64,000 bases of DNA. Origin: Metridium senile (Eukaryota; Cnidaria; Anthozoa; Actiniaria; Metridiidae). Where the stretch lies: NCBI GenBank assembly GCA_949775045.1, contig OX459101.1:15964180-16028179 (forward strand), in the 5' to 3' direction. A model generated the notes under the pieces. That model saw only the letters and a list, made by a program, of their open reading frames with translations, was not told the DNA's origin and did no database searches. Positions 621 through 64,000 of this stretch are shown in pieces (position 1 is the stretch's first letter; each line of letters begins with the position of its first letter). The translations under genes were made by a program, and so were the position numbers.

Positions 621-1347
621 AGTAGTATTCTTGGGATGAAATGACCCCGGAAATTGAGGTGGGATTGAGGTGGGATTGAGGCGGTGCCATGGTAACCAGG
701 TGACGCGAGAGGATTAGCACCTTGACCAGGAAGTGAAGTGTTGCTATGGTAACCAGGTGACGCCAAAGGCTTAGTGAGCGGGCAAGTTTGGGCAAGTCTT
801 TATCAATTATAATATATAGCGCGCGCCTATTTTGAATCTTTCACTAAAACATTTGAAAAGAAAAAACGTTTGCCGGGTTAGAAAAACATGGCAACTTTAG
901 TTATTCAAACTAGGCAATCGAAGAGCAACCATTCAAGAGAAAATGCACTAAACAATCCAACGCAAAAATAAAGCTACGCGAATTAAGTAAAAGCAATTAT
1001 AATTAAAATCTATATGCAGCACGAAAAAACAACATCTGATGAACTAGCTAATCTGTTTAATGATAAATCAAAACTTTTTACAAGGTTTTGCAAACAACAG
1101 CTTATTATTCAGTGGTCTCTTGTTCAGGTTCAGAGTCAGGCTAACCAAAGAAAGAAAGAATCCCGATTAAAACTTGTGTTTGTAAACATACTTAGTTAGC
1201 TAGAGTTTAGGATTAATTGTTTTGAAACATGAAAATCTCTATAATTAACTAATACATGTAATAGAGAATCGAATCCCCAGAAGAAAAACATTAACAGGAA
1301 ACCAAGATTTATGCTTCAAAGTTTTACAGATATATATATCTAATAAC

Positions 1348-1722
1348 TTATTTTGAATAACTTACAGCCGGCTTAAGAATCATTCGGGATCTTGTTGAAT
1401 ATCTTTTGTAGAAAAGCGTCAGGATCGAATTCATCACACTGCAAAAGGTCTTGTGTACCAATTGATCATCTCCAATATCACATCTTCTTGGTCCAATTAA
1501 ATAATTCAGGCGGAGACCAATAATCAAACTGTAGATTAAGAAAAAGCAGGAGCCCATAAATATGCTTACCACATCTTCAATAAGTTGATAATTAGTAGAT
1601 AATAACTCGGCCATTATGAACAAGAAACAACTGAGTAAAATAATCTTTGCAGGGAAATAATCGCTAATCAGTATCTTTTGGAAGCAATTTATAAGGTTTG
1701 TTAGTACAAAAGATATAAGCAT
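1348..1722 (-). CDS. Hydrophobic ORF in left arm (hypothetical)
   Basis: A 124-codon open frame with several hydrophobic stretches near residues 1-40 and 50-75, which could be membrane segments. Its mirror copy is 5755-6129. No family is recognised. Splice-like signals occur inside: GTAAGC after a MAELLSTNYQLIEDV segment, then a CTACAG acceptor. The real product might therefore be spliced, and the apparent membrane character could be an artefact of reading through an intron. Preservation in both arms reflects arm identity and is not independent evidence of selection. Confidence 0.3.
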   Translation of the reverse strand: MLISFVLTNLINCFQKILISDYFPAKIILLSCFLFIMAELLSTNYQLIEDVVSIFMGSCFFLIYSLIIGLRLNYLIGPRRCDIGDDQLVHKTFCSVMNSILTLFYKRYSTRSRMILKPAVSYSK

Positions 1723-1984
1723 TTCAAAAAGAACCTTATTTCGCGCAACATATTAATTACGTTCAAAAACAAACATGAACACAAAGTTTATTTTAAGCTC
1801 CAATAATTTTCATGAACACAAAAGATATCAAACAAAGGATTGTTTTTTACGATAAATATAACTTTGAATTATAATTAGTGTATCTTAGCTTAAAATCCAT
1901 CAGTAAAAAAAAAGTTTTTTATCACGTGGTGTATGTTCAACTCCTCGATAGTCATAGTTATAGTTATAGTTGACAAGCATTAGT

Positions 1985-2134
1985 ATGGATAAAAACATTT
2001 CAAAACTTTCGGAAGAGGAATTGAGAGAAATTCAAGAAAGTTTGCATGGACAGTTTGCTATTGTTATAACGCACAAGTGTACCTGCATGCATGATATAAA
2101 TAAAATGTTGATCTTATTATTGTCTGATATATAG
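1985..2134 (+). CDS. Small acidic/helical ORF in left arm
   Basis: A short frame begins MDKNISKLSEEELREIQESL and stops after about 49 codons. The first half looks like a charged amphipathic helix. The mirror copy lies on the minus strand near 5343-5492. It is unrecognised. It may be a first exon, because no polyadenylation signal or further domain follows. Confidence 0.25.
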   Translation: MDKNISKLSEEELREIQESLHGQFAIVITHKCTCMHDINKMLILLLSDI

Positions 2135-2740
2135 TTTAACTGAATAACCTTTTTAAAAAAGAACTGTATTCTAGTTAATGGTCAAACACCTATGCTTTAT
2201 AAACATGGATTCATTTTAAATCTTCACTTCGCATAATTTACTTCAGTTATGCGTCTAGTTCATATTGAATTTAAATTTATCATAATTAAGTAACAACAAA
2301 ACGGTTCATATAGTTTTATCTCGATTCAAACAAAATATTTAACTACCTACAAAAGGTATCATATAAGTCAGTCAAGAAATCAACCAACCTTTCGAAAATC
2401 ATTATCATAAAATCTCTGTGCTGCATGTGTGTTTTTATTAGTTATTCAAGCTGATTGTTCACACAACTTGCGTAGTATTGTATCGATCGCGACTAGGAAG
2501 ATAAACAAAAACAATAATAGAACAACTGATCTGAATCTTTATTTTCTATCAAAATAAGAATTACATTTATCAATGACAGCAAAGTTTATTCACTAATGGA
2601 AATGTTCATTTGGTTTGTTTATGAAAAAGTGAATAAAACCGCGTTTGTTCTCCTTACAATGGTGCATGATAAAAGCTAAGTATGAATATTACAAAAATCA
2701 ATTTTGTTATTTATTTTGCATGACTATTATTCGTATGTAA

Positions 2741-3127
2741 TTACAATGATTTCAACTCCAACCATTTACGTTTACAGGCATATTTTCTTCTTTTTGTAGA
2801 TACTTTTGAGGCTGCTTTATCTCCCTTGCGCTTATTTCTATTCATAGAGTTTTCATTTGTTATTATATATTCATAAGAGTTTCTCTCCATCTCTTCCTGG
2901 TGTTTGAGAAGTCGTGCTAATGATTTTTGTACATTTGGTACATTATCCTCTGTTCCAGTTTCATCATAATTCTTTGAGGGAATGCATACTCCAAGTTTAC
3001 TCCATTTTAACCATTTAGCACGCTCTTCGATATCCATTCGATGAACTTGATCGAGATGATTTGCTAGTCGAGTAAGGTTAGTGCTTCCACATCCAAATAC
3101 AGGACAGTTTCGCCTTGTGCGTCCCAT
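2741..3127 (-). CDS. Small zinc-finger protein of the palindromic element (left arm copy)
   Basis: About 128 codons from the Met at 3127; an upstream in-frame Met at 3157 would add ten residues. The 3127 start is preferred because it matches the start of the related ORF at 60876. The N-terminus has a C-x4-C-x10-H-x4-H finger (CPVFGCG...NHLDQVH), followed by a conserved ER-W-KL helix. The C-terminus is Lys/Arg-rich and probably nuclear. It differs from the right arm copy at two residues. A DNA-binding role for element replication or transposition is inference. Confidence 0.6.
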   Translation of the reverse strand: MGRTRRNCPVFGCGSTNLTRLANHLDQVHRMDIEERAKWLKWSKLGVCIPSKNYDETGTEDNVPNVQKSLARLLKHQEEMERNSYEYIITNENSMNRNKRKGDKAASKVSTKRRKYACKRKWLELKSL

Positions 3128-3338
3128 GCTGAGCTCTTGACTTGACCAATGTTTCATAGAAAATAATCTCTTTTTGCAATATTACATTTTTATGTATGAC
3201 GGCCCGAATAAGAGGCCCGCGACGGCCCGAATCAACCCGAATCGGCCCAAATCGGCCCGAACTGGCCCGATAAGACCCGAAGGCCCTATAGGCTTTATTT
3301 GCTCTCTCGCTCTCTTTCTGTCTCTTATTCATTTTGGC

Positions 3339-4138
3339 ACGTTCGCGCATGATCATAGAGAAATTTAATTTCTCTTAAAAAAATGCGATAACAAGATAAC
3401 CGGTCCCATAATAGAGCATAACCCTCTGCTTATAAGGGAGGTTAGCATCCAAAGCAGAGTCATCCCAAAATAACTCTCAAGAAGATAACATGTCTCAATC
3501 CCACTATGAAGAAGATGAATCAAGTTCTGACAGCATGGCAAGTAGTGATCAAGAAAGTATTGAGGATAGCAGCGAGGATAGTGTTGACTCAAGTCAGTTT
3601 GATTCTACTGAAGATGAGAAAAAGGATGTTTGGTCGAGAATGCAACACAAGGCAATGGAAAGGCATCAGCAAGATTTGGAAGTGGCAATGCAGCAATATA
3701 AACAAAACGGTGATAGTGATGAAGTAGCACAAGCCAAAGCCAATAATGCTTTGTTGCCTACATACAGAAAAGAGCTGAGGGAGGTTCTAAACGAACAACT
3801 GACATGGATACATCATTTGAGAAGAGATCCTACTTATAAAAAGATCATGGCCACAAAGAAAAACCTTATGGATGATAATGACTACAGCTGGGAGGAGGCA
3901 ACTGAATCGGCAATACATCAAAGGCAATTTCTACTTAACAAACTATTTGTACAGGAAGAAATTCCAAAACAAAGTATAATTAACTACGCAACTTATAATT
4001 CTTATACTCGTTAGCCTTAGATGCATGTAATTGTGTTTTGAAAATAATTTTTTTCGGTTTAATAAAATGAGGTTTTTGTTTCATTGAGTTTTTGTTTTAT
4101 CTTAATCTACTTTGATTAAGCGCAACCGTTGCGACGGG
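3339..4138. other. Unique loop of the palindrome
   Basis: This is the only part of 621-6856 without an inverted partner. It holds one gene (3490-4014), a polyadenylation-like AATAAAA near 4060, and about 150 bp upstream of the gene that could hold its promoter. The arm edges run through a GGGCCGATTC-type short tandem repeat. Confidence 0.7.
3490..4014 (+). CDS. Acidic coiled/helical protein of the palindromic element
   Basis: An intact 174-codon ORF. Residues 1-46 are rich in Ser, Asp and Glu (SSEDSVDSSQFDSTEDE). The rest is predicted mostly helical, with conserved patches ELREVLNEQLTWIHHL, KKIMATKKNL and SWEEATESAI. A diverged but collinear homologue is at 61392-61946, so this is a real protein family and not a chance frame. 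In both places a zinc-finger gene lies downstream on the same strand. No known domain is recognised. An acidic nuclear or capsid-associated role can only be guessed. The start is the Met after GAAGATAAC, matching the MSHSDSGYEDE start of the homologue. Confidence 0.7.
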   Translation: MSQSHYEEDESSSDSMASSDQESIEDSSEDSVDSSQFDSTEDEKKDVWSRMQHKAMERHQQDLEVAMQQYKQNGDSDEVAQAKANNALLPTYRKELREVLNEQLTWIHHLRRDPTYKKIMATKKNLMDDNDYSWEEATESAIHQRQFLLNKLFVQEEIPKQSIINYATYNSYTR

Positions 4139-4349
4139 GCCAAATTGAATAAGAGACAGAACGAGAGCGAGAGAGCAAATAAAGCCTATAGGGCCTTCGG
4201 GTCTGATCGGGCCAGTTCGGGCCGATTTGGGCCGATTCGGGTTGATTCGGGCCGTCGCGGGCCTCTTATTCGGGCCGTCATACATAAAAATGTAATATTG
4301 CAAAAAGAGATTATTTTCTATGAAACATTGGTCAAGTCAAGAGCTCAGC

Positions 4350-4736
4350 ATGGGACGCACAAGGCGAAACTGTCCTGTATATGGATGTGGAAGCACTAAC
4401 CTTGCTCGACTAGCAAATCATCTCGATCAAGTTCATCGAATGGATATCGAAGAGCGTGCTAAATGGTTAAAATGGAGTAAACTTGGAGTATGCATTCCCT
4501 CAAAGAATTATGATGAAACTGGAACAGAGGATAATGTACCAAATGTACAAAAATCATTAGCACGACTTCTCAAACACCAGGAAGAGATGGAGAGAAACTC
4601 TTATGAATATATAATAACAAATGAAAACTCTATGAATAGAAATAAGCGCAAGGGAGATAAAGCAGCCTCAAAAGTATCTACAAAAAGAAGAAAATATGCC
4701 TGTAAACGTAAATGGTTGGAGTTGAAATCATTGTAA
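4350..4736 (+). CDS. Small zinc-finger protein of the palindromic element (right arm copy)
   Basis: Mirror copy of 2741-3127, about 128 codons from the preferred Met at 4350 (alternative Met at 4320). It has the same C-x4-C-x10-H-x4-H finger (CPVYGCG...NHLDQVH) and a basic C-terminus ending in KRKWLELKSL. It lies downstream of the acidic gene on the same strand, and AATAAA follows at about 4764. The gap between the two genes holds a GGGCCGATTC-type tandem repeat. Confidence 0.65.
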   Translation: MGRTRRNCPVYGCGSTNLARLANHLDQVHRMDIEERAKWLKWSKLGVCIPSKNYDETGTEDNVPNVQKSLARLLKHQEEMERNSYEYIITNENSMNRNKRKGDKAASKVSTKRRKYACKRKWLELKSL

Positions 4737-5754
4737 TTACATACGAATAATAGTCATGCAAAATAAATAACAAAATTGATTTTTGTAATATTCATACTTA
4801 GCTTTTATCATGCACCATTGTAAGGAGAACAAACGCGGTTTTATTCACTTTTTCATAAACAAACCAAATGAACATTTCCATTAGTGAATAAACTTTGCTG
4901 TCATTGATAAATGTAATTCTTATTTTGATAGAAAATAAAGATTCAGATCAGTTGTTCTATTATTGTTTTTGTTTATCTTCCTAGTCGCGATCGATACAAT
5001 ACTACGCAAGTTGTGTGAACAATCAGCTTGAATAACTAATAAAAACACACATGCAGCACAGAGATTTTATGATAATGATTTTCGAAAGGTTGGTTGATTT
5101 CTTGACTGACTTATATGATACCTTTTGTAGGTAGTTAAATATTTTGTTTGAATCGAGATAAAACTATATGAACCGTTTTGTTGTTACTTAATTATGATAA
5201 ATTTAAATTCAATATGAACTAGACGCATAACTGAAGTAAATTATGCGAAGTGAAGATTTAAAATGAATCCATGTTTATAAAGCATAGGTGTTTGACCATT
5301 AACTAGAATACAGTTCTTTTTTAAAAAGGTTATTCAGTTAAACTATATATCAGACAATAATAAGATCAACATTTTATTTATATCATGCATGCAGGTACAC
5401 TTGTGCGTTATAACAATAGCAAACTGTCCATGCAAACTTTCTTGAATTTCTCTCAATTCCTCTTCCGAAAGTTTTGAAATGTTTTTATCCATACTAATGC
5501 TTGTCAACTATAACTATAACTATGACTATCGAGGAGTTGAACATACACCACGTGATAAAAAACTTTTTTTTTACTGATGGATTTTAAGCTAAGATACACT
5601 AATTATAATTCAAAGTTATATTTATCGTAAAAAACAATCCTTTGTTTGATATCTTTTGTGTTCATGAAAATTATTGGAGCTTAAAATAAACTTTGTGTTC
5701 ATGTTTGTTTTTGAACGTAATTAATATGTTGCGCGAAATAAGGTTCTTTTTGAA

Positions 5755-6129
5755 ATGCTTATATCTTTTGTACTAACAAACCTTATAAATTGCTTCCAAA
5801 AGATACTGATTAGCGATTATTTCCCTGCAAAGATTATTTTACTCAGTTGTTTCTTGTTCATAATGGCCGAGTTATTATCTACTAATTATCAACTTATTGA
5901 AGATGTGGTAAGCATATTTATGGGCTCCTGCTTTTTCTTAATCTACAGTTTGATTATTGGTCTCCGCCTGAATTATTTAATTGGACCAAGAAGATGTGAT
6001 ATTGGAGATGATCAATTGGTACACAAGACCTTTTGCAGTGTGATGAATTCGATCCTGACGCTTTTCTACAAAAGATATTCAACAAGATCCCGAATGATTC
6101 TTAAGCCGGCTGTAAGTTATTCAAAATAA
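5755..6129 (+). CDS. Hydrophobic ORF in right arm (hypothetical)
   Basis: Mirror copy of 1348-1722, identical as far as read. It has the same internal splice-like signals and hydrophobic stretches, and no family is recognised. Confidence 0.3.
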   Translation: MLISFVLTNLINCFQKILISDYFPAKIILLSCFLFIMAELLSTNYQLIEDVVSIFMGSCFFLIYSLIIGLRLNYLIGPRRCDIGDDQLVHKTFCSVMNSILTLFYKRYSTRSRMILKPAVSYSK

Positions 6130-6856
6130 GTTATTAGATATATATATCTGTAAAACTTTGAAGCATAAATCTTGGTTTCCTGTTAATGTTTTTCTTCTGG
6201 GGATTCGATTCTCTATTACATGTATTAGTTAATTATAGAGATTTTCATGTTTCAAAACAATTAATCCTAAACTCTAGCTAACTAAGTATGTTTACAAACA
6301 CAAGTTTTAATCGGGATTCTTTCTTTCTTTGGTTAGCCTGACTCTGAACCTGAACAAGAGACCACTGAATAATAAGCTGTTGTTTGCAAAACCTTGTAAA
6401 AAGTTTTGATTTATCATTAAACAGATTAGCTAGTTCATCAGATGTTGTTTTTTCGTGCTGCATATAGATTTTAATTATAATTGCTTTTACTTAATTCGCG
6501 TAGCTTTATTTTTGCGTTGGATTGTTTAGTGCATTTTCTCTTGAATGGTTGCTCTTCGATTGCCTAGTTTGAATAACTAAAGTTGCCATGTTTTTCTAAC
6601 CCGGCAAACGTTTTTTCTTTTCAAATGTTTTAGTGAAAGATTCAAAATAGGCGCGCGCTATATATTATAATTGATAAAGACTTGCCCAAACTTGCCCGCT
6701 CACTAAGCCTTTGGCGTCACCTGGTTACCATAGCAACACTTCACTTCCTGGTCAAGGTGCTAATCCTCTCGCGTCACCTGGTTACCATGGCACCGCCTCA
6801 ATCCCACCTCAATCCCACCTCAATTTCCGGGGTCATTTCATCCCAAGAATACTACT

Positions 6857-6916
6857 CTCCGTCACGGACGTGAATTCTTTTGTCAATTGCTCATTAATTA
6901 TTCATGAATTTTATAA
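6857..6916. mobile_element. Right end of the interrupted foldback MITE
   Basis: This segment is the inverted partner of 94-163. It begins with CTCCGT, the second copy of the 6-bp target duplication of the 621-6856 element; the first copy is at 615-620. Joining 620 to 6863 restores a continuous MITE arm. Confidence 0.75.
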
Positions 6917-7005: not shown

Positions 7006-40370
<33,365 letters not shown>

Positions 40371-59217: not shown

Positions 59218-60560
59218 TTCACGGGGATTTATCACTGTAATCAAACAGTCGAAGAGCTTGTCGCACACTCTAATTGTCACTCACGACGTCTGAGCAGCGA
59301 TCAGAAATCCTGAGAAATCAAAGATTCGAATCTGTTTAAACTGAAAACTATATCAACAAAAGATATATTATTACGAAAACATAACAGTAGTATGCGAGTA
59401 CCAATCCTACGCCACCCGAACCGGCGGTTCCGCCGGTTCCACCGAGAAACAAAAGAAATTCCTCATATTTTAAATTCCTAAGCGGCCGTCAAACAAAAGA
59501 AATAGCAATCGCTAGAAACAGACGCGATCAAAACAAAAGAAATTCTTGAAGCTAGGATTAAATGTGGCGTCCTATTTCGCTAAACAAAAGAAATTCTTCA
59601 GCTGAGGATAAGATATAGCATTTTTAAAATTCCTTTAAGAATAGCGGTTTTTCTAACTACAAACATGCGCGTCACCAAATGCGAATCTATTTTTTTTTAG
59701 TTCATAGACAAAAGAAATGCTTGATTTTGAAGTCAACAAACAAAATTGTGGTGTTAGATATTTCTTACTGATATAACACGAGAACGACGGCCATTAAATA
59801 GTTTATTCTGCGTGATACCTTTTATGATAATGTGTTTTTACAGTCTTGGCGCGTGCCGCGTCACCACCTGCAAATCTATTGTTTAGTTCATAGACAAAAT
59901 AATTTCTTGTTTTTGAAGTAAAATTGCAATGCCTGCCTATAAATCGAGAAATAAACAAACAAAATTGTGGCGTTAGATATTCCTTACTGATATAACAAAT
60001 AGACTACGCAGTTCTTTCTTTTTAAACAATAATAAGTGTGCCGAATTAAACAATAACACATCGTAACTAGGTATAGTCAATTAAAGGTGGAATGAGTACA
60101 TTTGTAAACATTGAGTAATTCAACGGGTTTTATTAGCATTACTTAATTAAACTTTAACTAACCTTAAAGTTAAAACTTTTAAAACAGTTTTTGCGATTAG
60201 TTTTCGGAGCAATTACTAATCTTACTGATATAACAAGAGAACGATGCACTTCTTACTTTTCAAACACTAATATTATGATAATGCATGGTTTGTACAATTA
60301 GTCTGGGCGCGTGCCTATTTTTTAACTAATCCTTGTACATGTTTTGTTTGTTTATCAAATTTAAATCATTAAATGAGTTTGAGCAGTTTGTATTCTATAT
60401 ATATAATGCTCTATAACTTTTAACATATCCGATAATTGAAAATATCCATTATATTTCTTCGACTGGCTTTTCTCCCGACTGCGTAAAGTCTGTCAGCCTC
60501 GTAGAGGCATATCTTGTAATGATGAAAATATTATATATTCTGCAACCCAAAGTGTGTTCA
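59218..60560. repeat. Non-coding tract with recurring AACAAAAGAAAT and duplicated blocks
   Basis: ACAAAAGAAAT occurs at about 59448, 59492, 59533, 59583 and 59707. A block with GCGTCACCA, TAGTTCATAGACAAAA and TTAGATATTTCTTACTGATA is repeated near 59667-59790 and 59849-60013. It may be the terminal non-coding part of the block to its right. No end sequence like AGTAGTATTC was found here. Confidence 0.45.
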
Positions 60561-60564
60561 TAGC

Positions 60565-60876
60565 TCAGAGAGCTTTCTTTGATTTTCTCTTTACGTTTCG
60601 AGGTCTACTGATCTTTTTCCGTCTTTGGACTTGTTGTGGCTTTCTTGGTAAAGATGGTTCATAAACAATGCTATCTTCATACTTTAATTTATTCTTCTCT
60701 TTAGAGTCGAGATAGACAATCACTTTTACTTTCGGTTGAAGTTTTGCTTCTTGTAGGCATTTCCTTCGTTCAATGTGATCTAATTGATGTACATCAGTTA
60801 GATGATTTGATAGTTTCACCAAGTATTTCGCTCCACAATCAGGGATAGGACAATCACGACAGACTCGATTGACCAT
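60565..60876 (-). CDS. Small zinc-finger protein (homologue of the palindrome finger)
   Basis: 103 codons from MVNRVCRDCP. The finger C9-x4-C14-x10-H25-x4-H30 (CPIPDCG...NHLTDVH) has exactly the spacing of the 4350-4736 product. The ER...L-x-KL helix follows, and the tail is Lys/Arg-rich. It lies downstream of the acidic gene on the same strand, as in the palindrome. It is probably a nuclear DNA-binding protein; function unknown. Confidence 0.65.
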   Translation of the reverse strand: MVNRVCRDCPIPDCGAKYLVKLSNHLTDVHQLDHIERRKCLQEAKLQPKVKVIVYLDSKEKNKLKYEDSIVYEPSLPRKPQQVQRRKKISRPRNVKRKSKKAL

Positions 60877-60939: not shown

Positions 60940-61090
60940 GTTTCAGGCGAGGATGAACAGGACAAAACCCAGGATGAACAGGACAAAACCCAGGATGAAC
61001 AGGACAAAACCCAGGATGAACAGGACAAAACCCAGGATGATGAGGACAAACCCAGGATGATGAGGACAAACCCAGGATGACCAGGACAAA
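60940..61090. repeat. 20-bp minisatellite between acidic and finger genes
   Basis: Seven or so copies of GGATGAACAGGACAAAACCC and shortened variants, placed in the same inter-gene position as the GGGCCGATTC repeat of the palindrome. Confidence 0.85.
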
Positions 61091-61391: not shown

Positions 61392-61946
61392 TCATCTGTG
61401 AAATTTGCAATCATGTGGGTTAAAAGTGTCAAAATTCACCGCACTTTGTATAGGAACTTCTTGTTTCGAAAACAGTTTGTTGAGCAAAAACTTTCTTTGG
61501 TTTATGGCTGATTCAGTTGCTTCTTCCCAGCTATAGTCTTCCATATCAATTAGGTTTTTCTTGGTAACCATAACTTTTTTATAAAGAGGATCCTTTTTCA
61601 AATAGTGGATCCATTTTAGGTGCTCAAATAGGACCTCCCTGAGCTCTTTTCTGAAAGTAGGAACCACGGCATTACTCGCTTTAACTTTTGCTACTTCATC
61701 ACCATCCCCATTTTGCTTATATTTCTGGACCAAATCTTCCCATTCTTCTTCATGCCTTTTGACCGCTTCGCTTTGAAGTCTTTCCCAAACGTTCATTTCG
61801 ACACCAACATCCAGCTCATCCTCTTCATGACTGTCTACAGAAGAGTCATCGCTTTCCTGGATACTTTCCTCATCACTATGCAAACTTTCATCTTCATAGC
61901 CGGAGTCGGAATGAGACATGGTTCTCTTGTAGCGTTCCTTTGTCAA
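61392..61946 (-). CDS. Acidic helical protein (homologue of 3490-4014)
   Basis: 184 codons, with a likely start at the tenth Met (MSHSDSGYEDE), matching the palindrome homologue. The N-terminal 50 residues are Ser/Asp/Glu-rich. The shared core reads VQKYKQNGDGDEVAKVKASN, FRKELREVLFEHLKWIHYLK and YSWEEATESAINQRKFLLNK. Conservation of the helical part between two unlinked copies implies selection on a protein. No known domain is recognised. Confidence 0.7.
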   Translation of the reverse strand: MTKERYKRTMSHSDSGYEDESLHSDEESIQESDDSSVDSHEEDELDVGVEMNVWERLQSEAVKRHEEEWEDLVQKYKQNGDGDEVAKVKASNAVVPTFRKELREVLFEHLKWIHYLKKDPLYKKVMVTKKNLIDMEDYSWEEATESAINQRKFLLNKLFSKQEVPIQSAVNFDTFNPHDCKFHR

Positions 61947-62237: not shown

Positions 62238-62837
62238 TCAAGTAGATAAAATATTTATTAAGCTATTTACATCATTTTTTTCTATTATTGCACACCATGC
62301 GTCGTAATCTAATTGTAAACAGTTTTCTAACTTTTGTACATCACAACATAAACTTTTTAAAATGTAATACATCAAACACTTTAGCGTACGCCCATTACCG
62401 TCAGAATAGGGATGTATTTTTAAAAATGTAATAATCAACCAGGCCAATAAATGATTTAGCTTTGTTGGATCAGTACCACTGTGCTTCCATTTTATTGTCC
62501 AAAACACCTCATTGTACACATCTATCATAGACTGCATTTCATTGTCGATAGCGTGTGGAAGAGTATAATATTTAATTTGTCCGTTGTATTCTGTTACACG
62601 TTTACATTGGCTATAACGCATCGATTCTTTCATCATAACTCTGCTATGCACTTCGTTTACAATCTCATGTTCAAGCAATCCTGAATTCTCTTGATCTCTA
62701 ATCAATTCATCCTCTATGTATTTCAAAGCTTTTGTCAGTCCTTTTATCGCCTCAGAACCATGTTCTTCACTTTTTGCAATTCTCGTTCCCATTGCAATTT
62801 CCATTTCCGTAACCATCGCAAATCCGTTGATTGCCAT
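62238..62837 (-). CDS. Fic-domain protein
   Basis: 199 codons. The Fic motif IHPYSDGNGRT is at residues 141-151, with the catalytic His142; Tyr replaces the usual Phe. The helical surroundings (LNHLLAWLIITFLK before, LMYYILKSL after) fit a Fic core. Such enzymes usually transfer AMP or another nucleotide to Ser, Thr or Tyr. An NSGLLEHE segment before the core could correspond to an inhibitory helix, but its Glu is followed by His, not Gly or Asn. It lies on the same strand as the acidic and finger genes, and an A-rich leader precedes the start. Confidence 0.8.
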   Translation of the reverse strand: MAINGFAMVTEMEIAMGTRIAKSEEHGSEAIKGLTKALKYIEDELIRDQENSGLLEHEIVNEVHSRVMMKESMRYSQCKRVTEYNGQIKYYTLPHAIDNEMQSMIDVYNEVFWTIKWKHSGTDPTKLNHLLAWLIITFLKIHPYSDGNGRTLKCLMYYILKSLCCDVQKLENCLQLDYDAWCAIIEKNDVNSLINILST

Positions 62838-63232: not shown

Positions 63233-63736
63233 TTAATCAATGTTCTGTTTTGTATACAGCCTTTTGTACAATAAAAAAGCTTTTCGGATATTGCTTTCGG
63301 GACTTGTAAATGATTCGCCACTGTTTAGGATCTCAAAGCCAAACGTTGGCTTTGATCCCATGCCAAAGTTGTGTAAACTGATGGGTGATCGTACAATCAC
63401 CTGGCCCCCGTCAAACTTAGGGAGGAAACAACACTTCTCTTTAGAATACTTTAACATTTTTTCCCAATGTGAAACATTGTCCTTCTCTCGTTGACCTCGT
63501 AAGAGAGGGTTGGTTGCATGACATGCGGTAGTGGATGCTATTCTATCTAGGTAAATCTTCCTCGCAGACGTGTTGACTTGCCTCTGTTCTCTCATTAAAT
63601 GCAGGATCTTGTCAACAGCCATAGTATCATAGAGTTGGTCGAGGTAGCATTTCATCAGACATTTTAACTTTAGGAACCGTGGATCTTTTGGTTGTAAGTC
63701 ATGTTCAATTCTAATGAACCATTTCACTGCTTTCAT
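63233..63736 (-). CDS. Unknown protein of the minus-strand block
   Basis: 167 codons, no recognised domain. It is Cys-, Lys- and Arg-containing with segments LMKCYLDQLYDTMAVDKILH and FDGGQVIVRSPISLHNFGMG. Its ATG overlaps the stop of the upstream ORF in TAATG, which suggests coupled or overlapping genes as in compact viral genomes, or a frame broken into two pieces. A C-terminal YKRLYTKQNID ends near the Fic gene side. Confidence 0.5.
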   Translation of the reverse strand: MKAVKWFIRIEHDLQPKDPRFLKLKCLMKCYLDQLYDTMAVDKILHLMREQRQVNTSARKIYLDRIASTTACHATNPLLRGQREKDNVSHWEKMLKYSKEKCCFLPKFDGGQVIVRSPISLHNFGMGSKPTFGFEILNSGESFTSPESNIRKAFLLYKRLYTKQNID

Positions 63737-63966: not shown

Positions 63967-64000
63967 ACCTCAACTGCCATACTTTCAAAGATTCGGGTAA

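Follow-up and report, generated by a model that had tools for sequence, protein, structure and literature searches.

A palindromic, gene-bearing element with Polinton-type ends is one of at least 15 copies in the Metridium senile genome and was likely copied and inserted by complete Polintons

What is the large palindrome near the start of a 64,000-nucleotide (nt) stretch of Metridium senile DNA, and by what means was it copied and inserted? The whole stretch, referred to here as the window, corresponds to positions 15964180-16028179 of contig C7 in a 389-Mb assembly of 169 contigs; other stretches read from the same genome carry L numbers. The element occupies window positions 621-6856 and consists of two inverted arms of 2,726 nt each (621-3346, + strand, with an AGTAGT terminus at 621, and 4131-6856, - strand, with an ACTACT terminus at 6856), separated by an asymmetric centre of 784 nt (3347-4130). 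A direct comparison of the arms shows 8 differences, all within the inner 274 nt, and none across the outer 2,452 nt. We conclude that the genome has at least 15 such palindromic, gene-bearing copies with Polinton ends, this element among them, and that complete Polintons in the same genome likely provided the enzymes for copying and inserting them.

The termini read AGTAGTATTC/GAATACTACT (AGTAGT...ACTACT), and the 18-nt end occurs in the window at only two sites, which are the two termini (chance expectation 0.04, allowing up to 3 mismatches). The 6-base pair (bp) sequence CTCCGT stands on both flanks, at 615-620 and 6857-6862. Joining the flanks with a single CTCCGT restores a 585-column inverted repeat of 88.5% identity, the empty host site, which implies that the element is a real and clean insertion. 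That host repeat, whose left part at 94-620 resumes at 6863-6916, is itself a 585-nt palindrome and has a partial 140-nt relative at 38236-38375. The original prediction, which was made from the letters of the window, had called two near-identical inverted arms, an asymmetric loop with one gene, the AGTAGT...ACTACT ends and the CTCCGT duplication, and all of these were found. It had also called the ends Polinton-type. In vertebrate Mavericks the commonest end motif is 5'-(AGT)2//(ACT)2-3'; their duplications are of 6 bp and their terminal repeats measure 46-1,447 bp (PMC8097293, in the part of that source consulted). The motif and duplication of the window element fit this description, and its 2.7-kb arms exceed the 46-1,447 bp range given for vertebrates.

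The centre contains one intact frame of 174 amino acids (aa), predicted to be helical and named LOOP (3490-4014, + strand). Each arm contains one intact 138-aa frame, named ZnF, that reads outward (2741-3157, - strand, and 4320-4736, + strand); the original prediction had not named this arm frame. ZnF shows by eye a finger-like CPVxGCG...H...H pattern, and a Pfam search with it returned nothing above cut-off.

Elsewhere in the genome, the outer 480 nt of the arm has at least 43 matches, a lower bound from the 40 of 72 candidates that were scored. At least 15 copies of the window-type palindrome are present, the window copy included, with sizes of 4.56, 6.18, 6.24, 7.33 (four copies), 8.41-8.50 (seven copies) and 16.35 kb (one copy). 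In all 15, LOOP matches at 97-100% identity, is flanked by two inverted ZnF genes and has an open frame. ZnF was counted in 14 copies, the 16.35-kb copy not among them, and each of their 28 arms has it intact. Perfect 6-bp duplications flank 14 of the 15 (13 of 14 plus the 16.35-kb copy, with TAGAAT). The 16.35-kb copy also holds large nested frames that resemble retroelement insertions, a likeness that is not a family-search classification. The 4.56-kb copy (L010) has lost an internal part of its D arm, but its ends and ZnF are kept and its duplication is perfect. In L024 and L031, which are decayed relatives, remains of LOOP and ZnF persist together with one end.

A complete Polinton, which we call the helper, lies at C7:1802811-1819701 (16.9 kb; pieces L027 and L036) between copies of the duplication ATCAAC; the absence of Polinton relatives, which the original prediction had named as a ground for rejection, was thus not what the genome held. 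Above the Pfam cut-off, the helper encodes an integrase with rve and chromo domains and an adenovirus-type protease (Peptidase_C5), and below it a double-jelly-roll capsid protein and an A32/IVa2 ATPase. L025, which is near-identical to the helper, has a PC4 gene and encodes a C2H2 protein. Helper frames also contain GNSSYGKT and MDTDS, which we take to be polymerase motifs. Of two Polinton copies followed inward, the one on C7 alone was read as far as both of its ends; in the part followed of the copy on contig C10 (L025, L034 and L035), neither a capsid or integrase frame nor a second end was seen. The helper integrase has 114 genome hits, of which four are identical and lie beside the ends in L026-L029; another 12 are at 97%, 11 of them free of stops and one with stops. 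Further Polinton-type integrase lineages in the genome show about 50%, 40% and 28% identity.

The ends of the palindromes match those of the helper. Over 205-209 nt, the helper's right end is 96.7% identical to the window element (621-825, + strand), 97.6% to L009, 97.6% to the D end of L018 and 98.6% to L011, and its left end matches the same four palindrome ends over about 300 nt at 92-100%. The arm of L011, an 8.4-kb copy, additionally carries the helper's outer 1,417 nt at 99.1-99.7% identity in five of five near-identical Polinton left ends, and it is 96.0% identical to the older end L030 over 1,446 nt. The L018 P arm matches the helper's outer 1.4 kb at 97.1-97.3% and L030 at 94.4%. The PC4 gene is present on both L011 arms, the remaining six 8.4-kb copies agree with L011 in length class and end type, and the 7.33-kb copies have one end of the helper 1.4-kb type and one that is not. 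Judged by these alignments, the window type shares DNA with the helper beyond the ends. The helper integrase had no match in the window, L009 or L011. A tblastn search with 12 helper frames against the window, L009, L011, L038 and L039 found no capsid, protease or ATPase match; the matches were the PC4 gene (L011) and stretches of up to 28 residues in the terminal repeat (window, L009 and L011) only.

Palindromy also recurs beyond the window type. LOOP has at least 153 genome matches, and among neighbouring pairs within 6 kb, 26 are inverted (24 of them divergent) versus one on the same strand. Palindromes occur in four LOOP subfamilies, for which three further representatives were read. L039 (LOOP about 91%) is a 5,378-nt palindrome of 99.55% identity with AGTAGT ends and the duplication GCGGAG; L038 (LOOP about 61%) is a 4,748-nt palindrome of 99.1% with AGTAGT ends and the duplication AGTGAA; and L040 (LOOP 36-41%) is palindromic except for 3 of the 4,021 nt read, with its ends outside the stretch. 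Almost all members of a LOOP group at 51-56% are single hits. The asymmetric centres of L038 and L039 span only some tens of nt. Outward from the centre, LOOP precedes ZnF in L039 and ZnF precedes LOOP in L038.

A GC core, GGGCCGTCGCGGGCCTCTT, marks the centres of both L038 and L039; L039 also has it upstream of each of its ZnF genes, and the window element contains two copies versus three in L039. The window copies adjoin arrays of about 10-nt repeats, one in the ZnF-LOOP interval (core 3210-3228, - strand; array 3223-3270) and one upstream of the right ZnF (core 4249-4267, + strand; array 4207-4254). The core is absent from four helper pieces at up to 2 mismatches. The centres of L038 and L039 are 88% identical over 60 nt and their LOOP genes 75%. 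Measured from the centre of L039, one half of that palindrome aligns colinearly with the window element (87.9% over 1,921 columns), in agreement with the original proposal that one end had been duplicated in inverted orientation. Loss of one LOOP between two cores from a full palindrome of this kind would yield the window layout. The further claim that the arms are the end of a full-size Polinton that became defective once was not supported: LOOP and ZnF had no match in the helper pieces, the element is multi-copy with intact genes, and palindromy occurs in four LOOP subfamilies.

Multi-copy status, DNA in common with a complete Polinton and recurrent palindromes can be read directly from the assembled genome. 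From the ends and the outer 1.4 kb that the palindromes have in common with the helper we infer mobilisation in trans; copying would be protein-primed and the origin would be by snap-back. The helper integrase and a protein-primed polymerase would recognise the shared ends of the palindromes. The palindrome may first have arisen from a nascent strand that folded back at a GC-rich repeat lying upstream of either LOOP or ZnF and served as its own template, which would give a self-complementary genome with two identical ends. In the window type, recombination between one GC core and another would have removed one of two LOOP copies and left the 784-nt asymmetric centre. Subsequent end-to-end copying would keep the outer arms alike, and the inner edge would drift. 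It is quite possible, although we hold this tentatively, that such elements form a class of animal Polinton satellites with a self-complementary, palindromic, heritable genome carrying LOOP and a finger gene, which arose by repeated fold-back at the conserved GC core, captured helper ends that spread to both arms, and radiated into subfamilies.

We compared the arms of the window-type copies with each other. In a tree of 27 arm segments (one side of L010 omitted, its D arm being internally deleted), the two sides are not separated, with 9 label changes versus a shuffled mean of 8.4. Differences between the two arms of the same copy number 0 of 2,140 in the window, 1 in L009, 2 in L012, 2 in L013, 3 in L014, 0 in L015 and 1 in L016; higher values are found in L017 (9), L011 (10) and L018-L021 (34 each, of 2,094 sites). 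L018-L021 are identical over the segment, have one arm in each clade and carry four different duplications, which implies that a hybrid spread; on this comparison the four hybrids look like one clone. Homogenisation of arms and their reassortment both seem to occur.

Several observations weigh against copying and insertion of the palindromes by Polinton enzymes. The identification of the helper polymerase is by motifs only, with no match in Pfam, PHROGs or PDB, and the last third of the polymerase-like frames, the only part queried, had no match in the palindromes. L012 is without a target duplication. The L011 P arm equals that of L012 and is nevertheless 10 sites off its own D arm, and the arm differences in L011, L017 and the hybrids extend beyond the inner edge. 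Moreover, what was observed is integrated copies in a genome assembly, rather than mobilisation, replication or an extrachromosomal form, and inverted duplication and gene conversion driven by the host could also make and keep palindromes.

The last of these points leads to an explanation that we consider unlikely, in which a chromosomal inverted duplication or break repair made the palindromes, gene conversion kept their arms alike, and ordinary mobilisation in trans followed. Gene conversion between the arms of chromosomal palindromes is established elsewhere, and the palindromes described here are known as integrated genomic copies rather than as extrachromosomal DNA. Against it, palindromy recurs in four LOOP subfamilies, L038 and L039 are centred on one and the same GC core, and the palindromes that were read to both ends stop exactly at the transposon termini.

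Internal deletion of a complete 16.9-kb Polinton with long terminal repeats is nearly refuted as an origin. It would account for the same ends and for the 1.4 kb, PC4 gene included, that L011-type palindromes and the complete Polinton have in common. Against it, the helper's own two ends are alike over only about 209 nt, the 1.4 kb resembling the helper is external to the satellite part in L011 and missing from the 6.2-kb copies, and neither LOOP nor ZnF has a match in the helper pieces (L027 and L036). LOOP hits lie within 15 kb of an integrase hit in 1 of 150 cases and within 25 kb in 4 of 150 (150 of 153 LOOP hits and 91 of 114 integrase hits used), which suggests that LOOP elements stand apart from integrase genes, with one exception. 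The sole hit within 15 kb is a partial LOOP match at C10:11102018, near integrase fragments at C10:11107134 and 11114248. We also considered LOOP and ZnF as genes of the complete Polinton, and dropped this idea given the lack of matches in the helper pieces and the rarity of LOOP near integrase.

It is more improbable still that the element is a foldback-type DNA transposon with long repeats from another superfamily, whose transposase is encoded outside the copies. No transposase was found in the element, and other superfamilies also make 6-bp duplications. However, the terminal 205 nt or so are 97-99% identical to a complete Polinton, the 1.4 kb is common to both, and the six single-ended matches L025-L030, when read inward, all enter the same Polinton gene set. 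Assembly errors can create palindromes, but the chance of such an artefact here is negligible, given the asymmetric centre, the target duplications, the restored empty site and the same layout at many independent loci, each with its own flanks.

Copying and insertion by Polinton enzymes thus remains our preferred reading, and the palindromes can be set beside known systems. They resemble Polintons/Mavericks (adintoviruses) in their (AGT)2//(ACT)2 ends, 6-bp duplications, terminal inverted repeats and the approximately 205-nt end of the resident Polinton; in contrast, the window element is palindromic and carries LOOP and ZnF, and integrase, capsid, protease and ATPase genes were not found in it. 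Snap-back forms of adenovirus are derivatives of protein-primed linear DNA, and a yeast hairpin plasmid was reportedly described by Kikuchi et al. in 1985. Like such derivatives, the palindromes have one end duplicated in inverted orientation, two identical termini and a self-complementary strand; unlike them, they are integrated between target duplications, exist in many copies, keep their genes intact and fall into several subfamilies. Foldback elements and non-autonomous DNA transposons likewise have long inverted arms and no transposase of their own, whereas the palindromes have Polinton-type ends, protein genes of their own (LOOP with a ratio of nonsynonymous to synonymous substitution rates, dN/dS, of about 0.2) and nearly full palindromy. 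Virophages and Polinton-like viruses offer another likeness, a small element likely dependent on a larger one, but no capsid or packaging gene was found in the palindromes.

The case for Polinton virions and for protein-primed replication has so far been drawn mainly from the genes that Polintons contain. Integrated palindromes that have Polinton ends, and that bear the helper end on one or both arms, are genomic evidence for a stage of end copying and exchange, as expected of linear protein-primed genomes. They also allow tests of the roles of LOOP and ZnF and of whether Polintons are themselves parasitised. Polintons are reviewed in PMC6431247, a coral polinton whose terminal protein is separate is described in PMC11071308, and some adintoviruses carry zinc-finger regulator genes (PMC11071296), each source being cited for the part consulted. 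Phrase searches of the literature on non-autonomous, defective, satellite and fold-back or palindromic Polintons returned no paper, and broader searches, at the level of titles and abstract openings, returned none describing such elements.

In a search of 5.8 billion proteins, 20 of 77 candidates were relatives of LOOP and 72 of 72 were relatives of ZnF, including a LOOP relative of 59% identity in the sea anemone Exaiptasia diaphana. Neither protein has relatives in IMG/VR or GTDB contigs, and neither the 18-nt end nor the helper integrase was found in IMG/VR. The predicted LOOP structure has four helices after an acidic, low-confidence start (mean pLDDT 66) and gave no PDB or viral structural match at E 0.001; the structure model of ZnF was poor. 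Between distant subfamilies, LOOP dN/dS is 0.18-0.25 (NG86, five pairs), at high synonymous divergence, and it is about 0.5 between the window element and L039. ZnF values range from about 0.2 to 0.7, with one ratio undefined. In the 36-41% subfamily, L040:1253-1897 and 2128-2772 each form a single 215-aa frame in which a C2H2-like finger precedes the LOOP domain, and this fusion suggests joint action of the two.

A non-palindromic sibling of 5.07 kb lies at 59386-64459 (+ strand) and continues from window position 64000 to L032:459. It has Polinton-type ends, 192-nt terminal repeats (90.6%) and the duplication CATAAC at 59380-59385 and L032:460-465. Its genes are present in single copy and comprise relatives of ZnF (60565-60876, - strand) and LOOP (61392-61946, - strand), a Fic-domain gene (62238-62837, - strand) and one more frame. 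The frame at 63233 has no homologue at E 0.001. By its layout the sibling represents an unduplicated form, with a 21-nt tandem array (60950-61090) at the matching place upstream of the ZnF relative. The window also contains a reverse-transcriptase fragment (RVT_1) at 28990-29916, and a 612-aa frame at 32895-34733 that has, by eye, a finger-like start and a recombinase-like middle, and at its end a sub-threshold Myb match.

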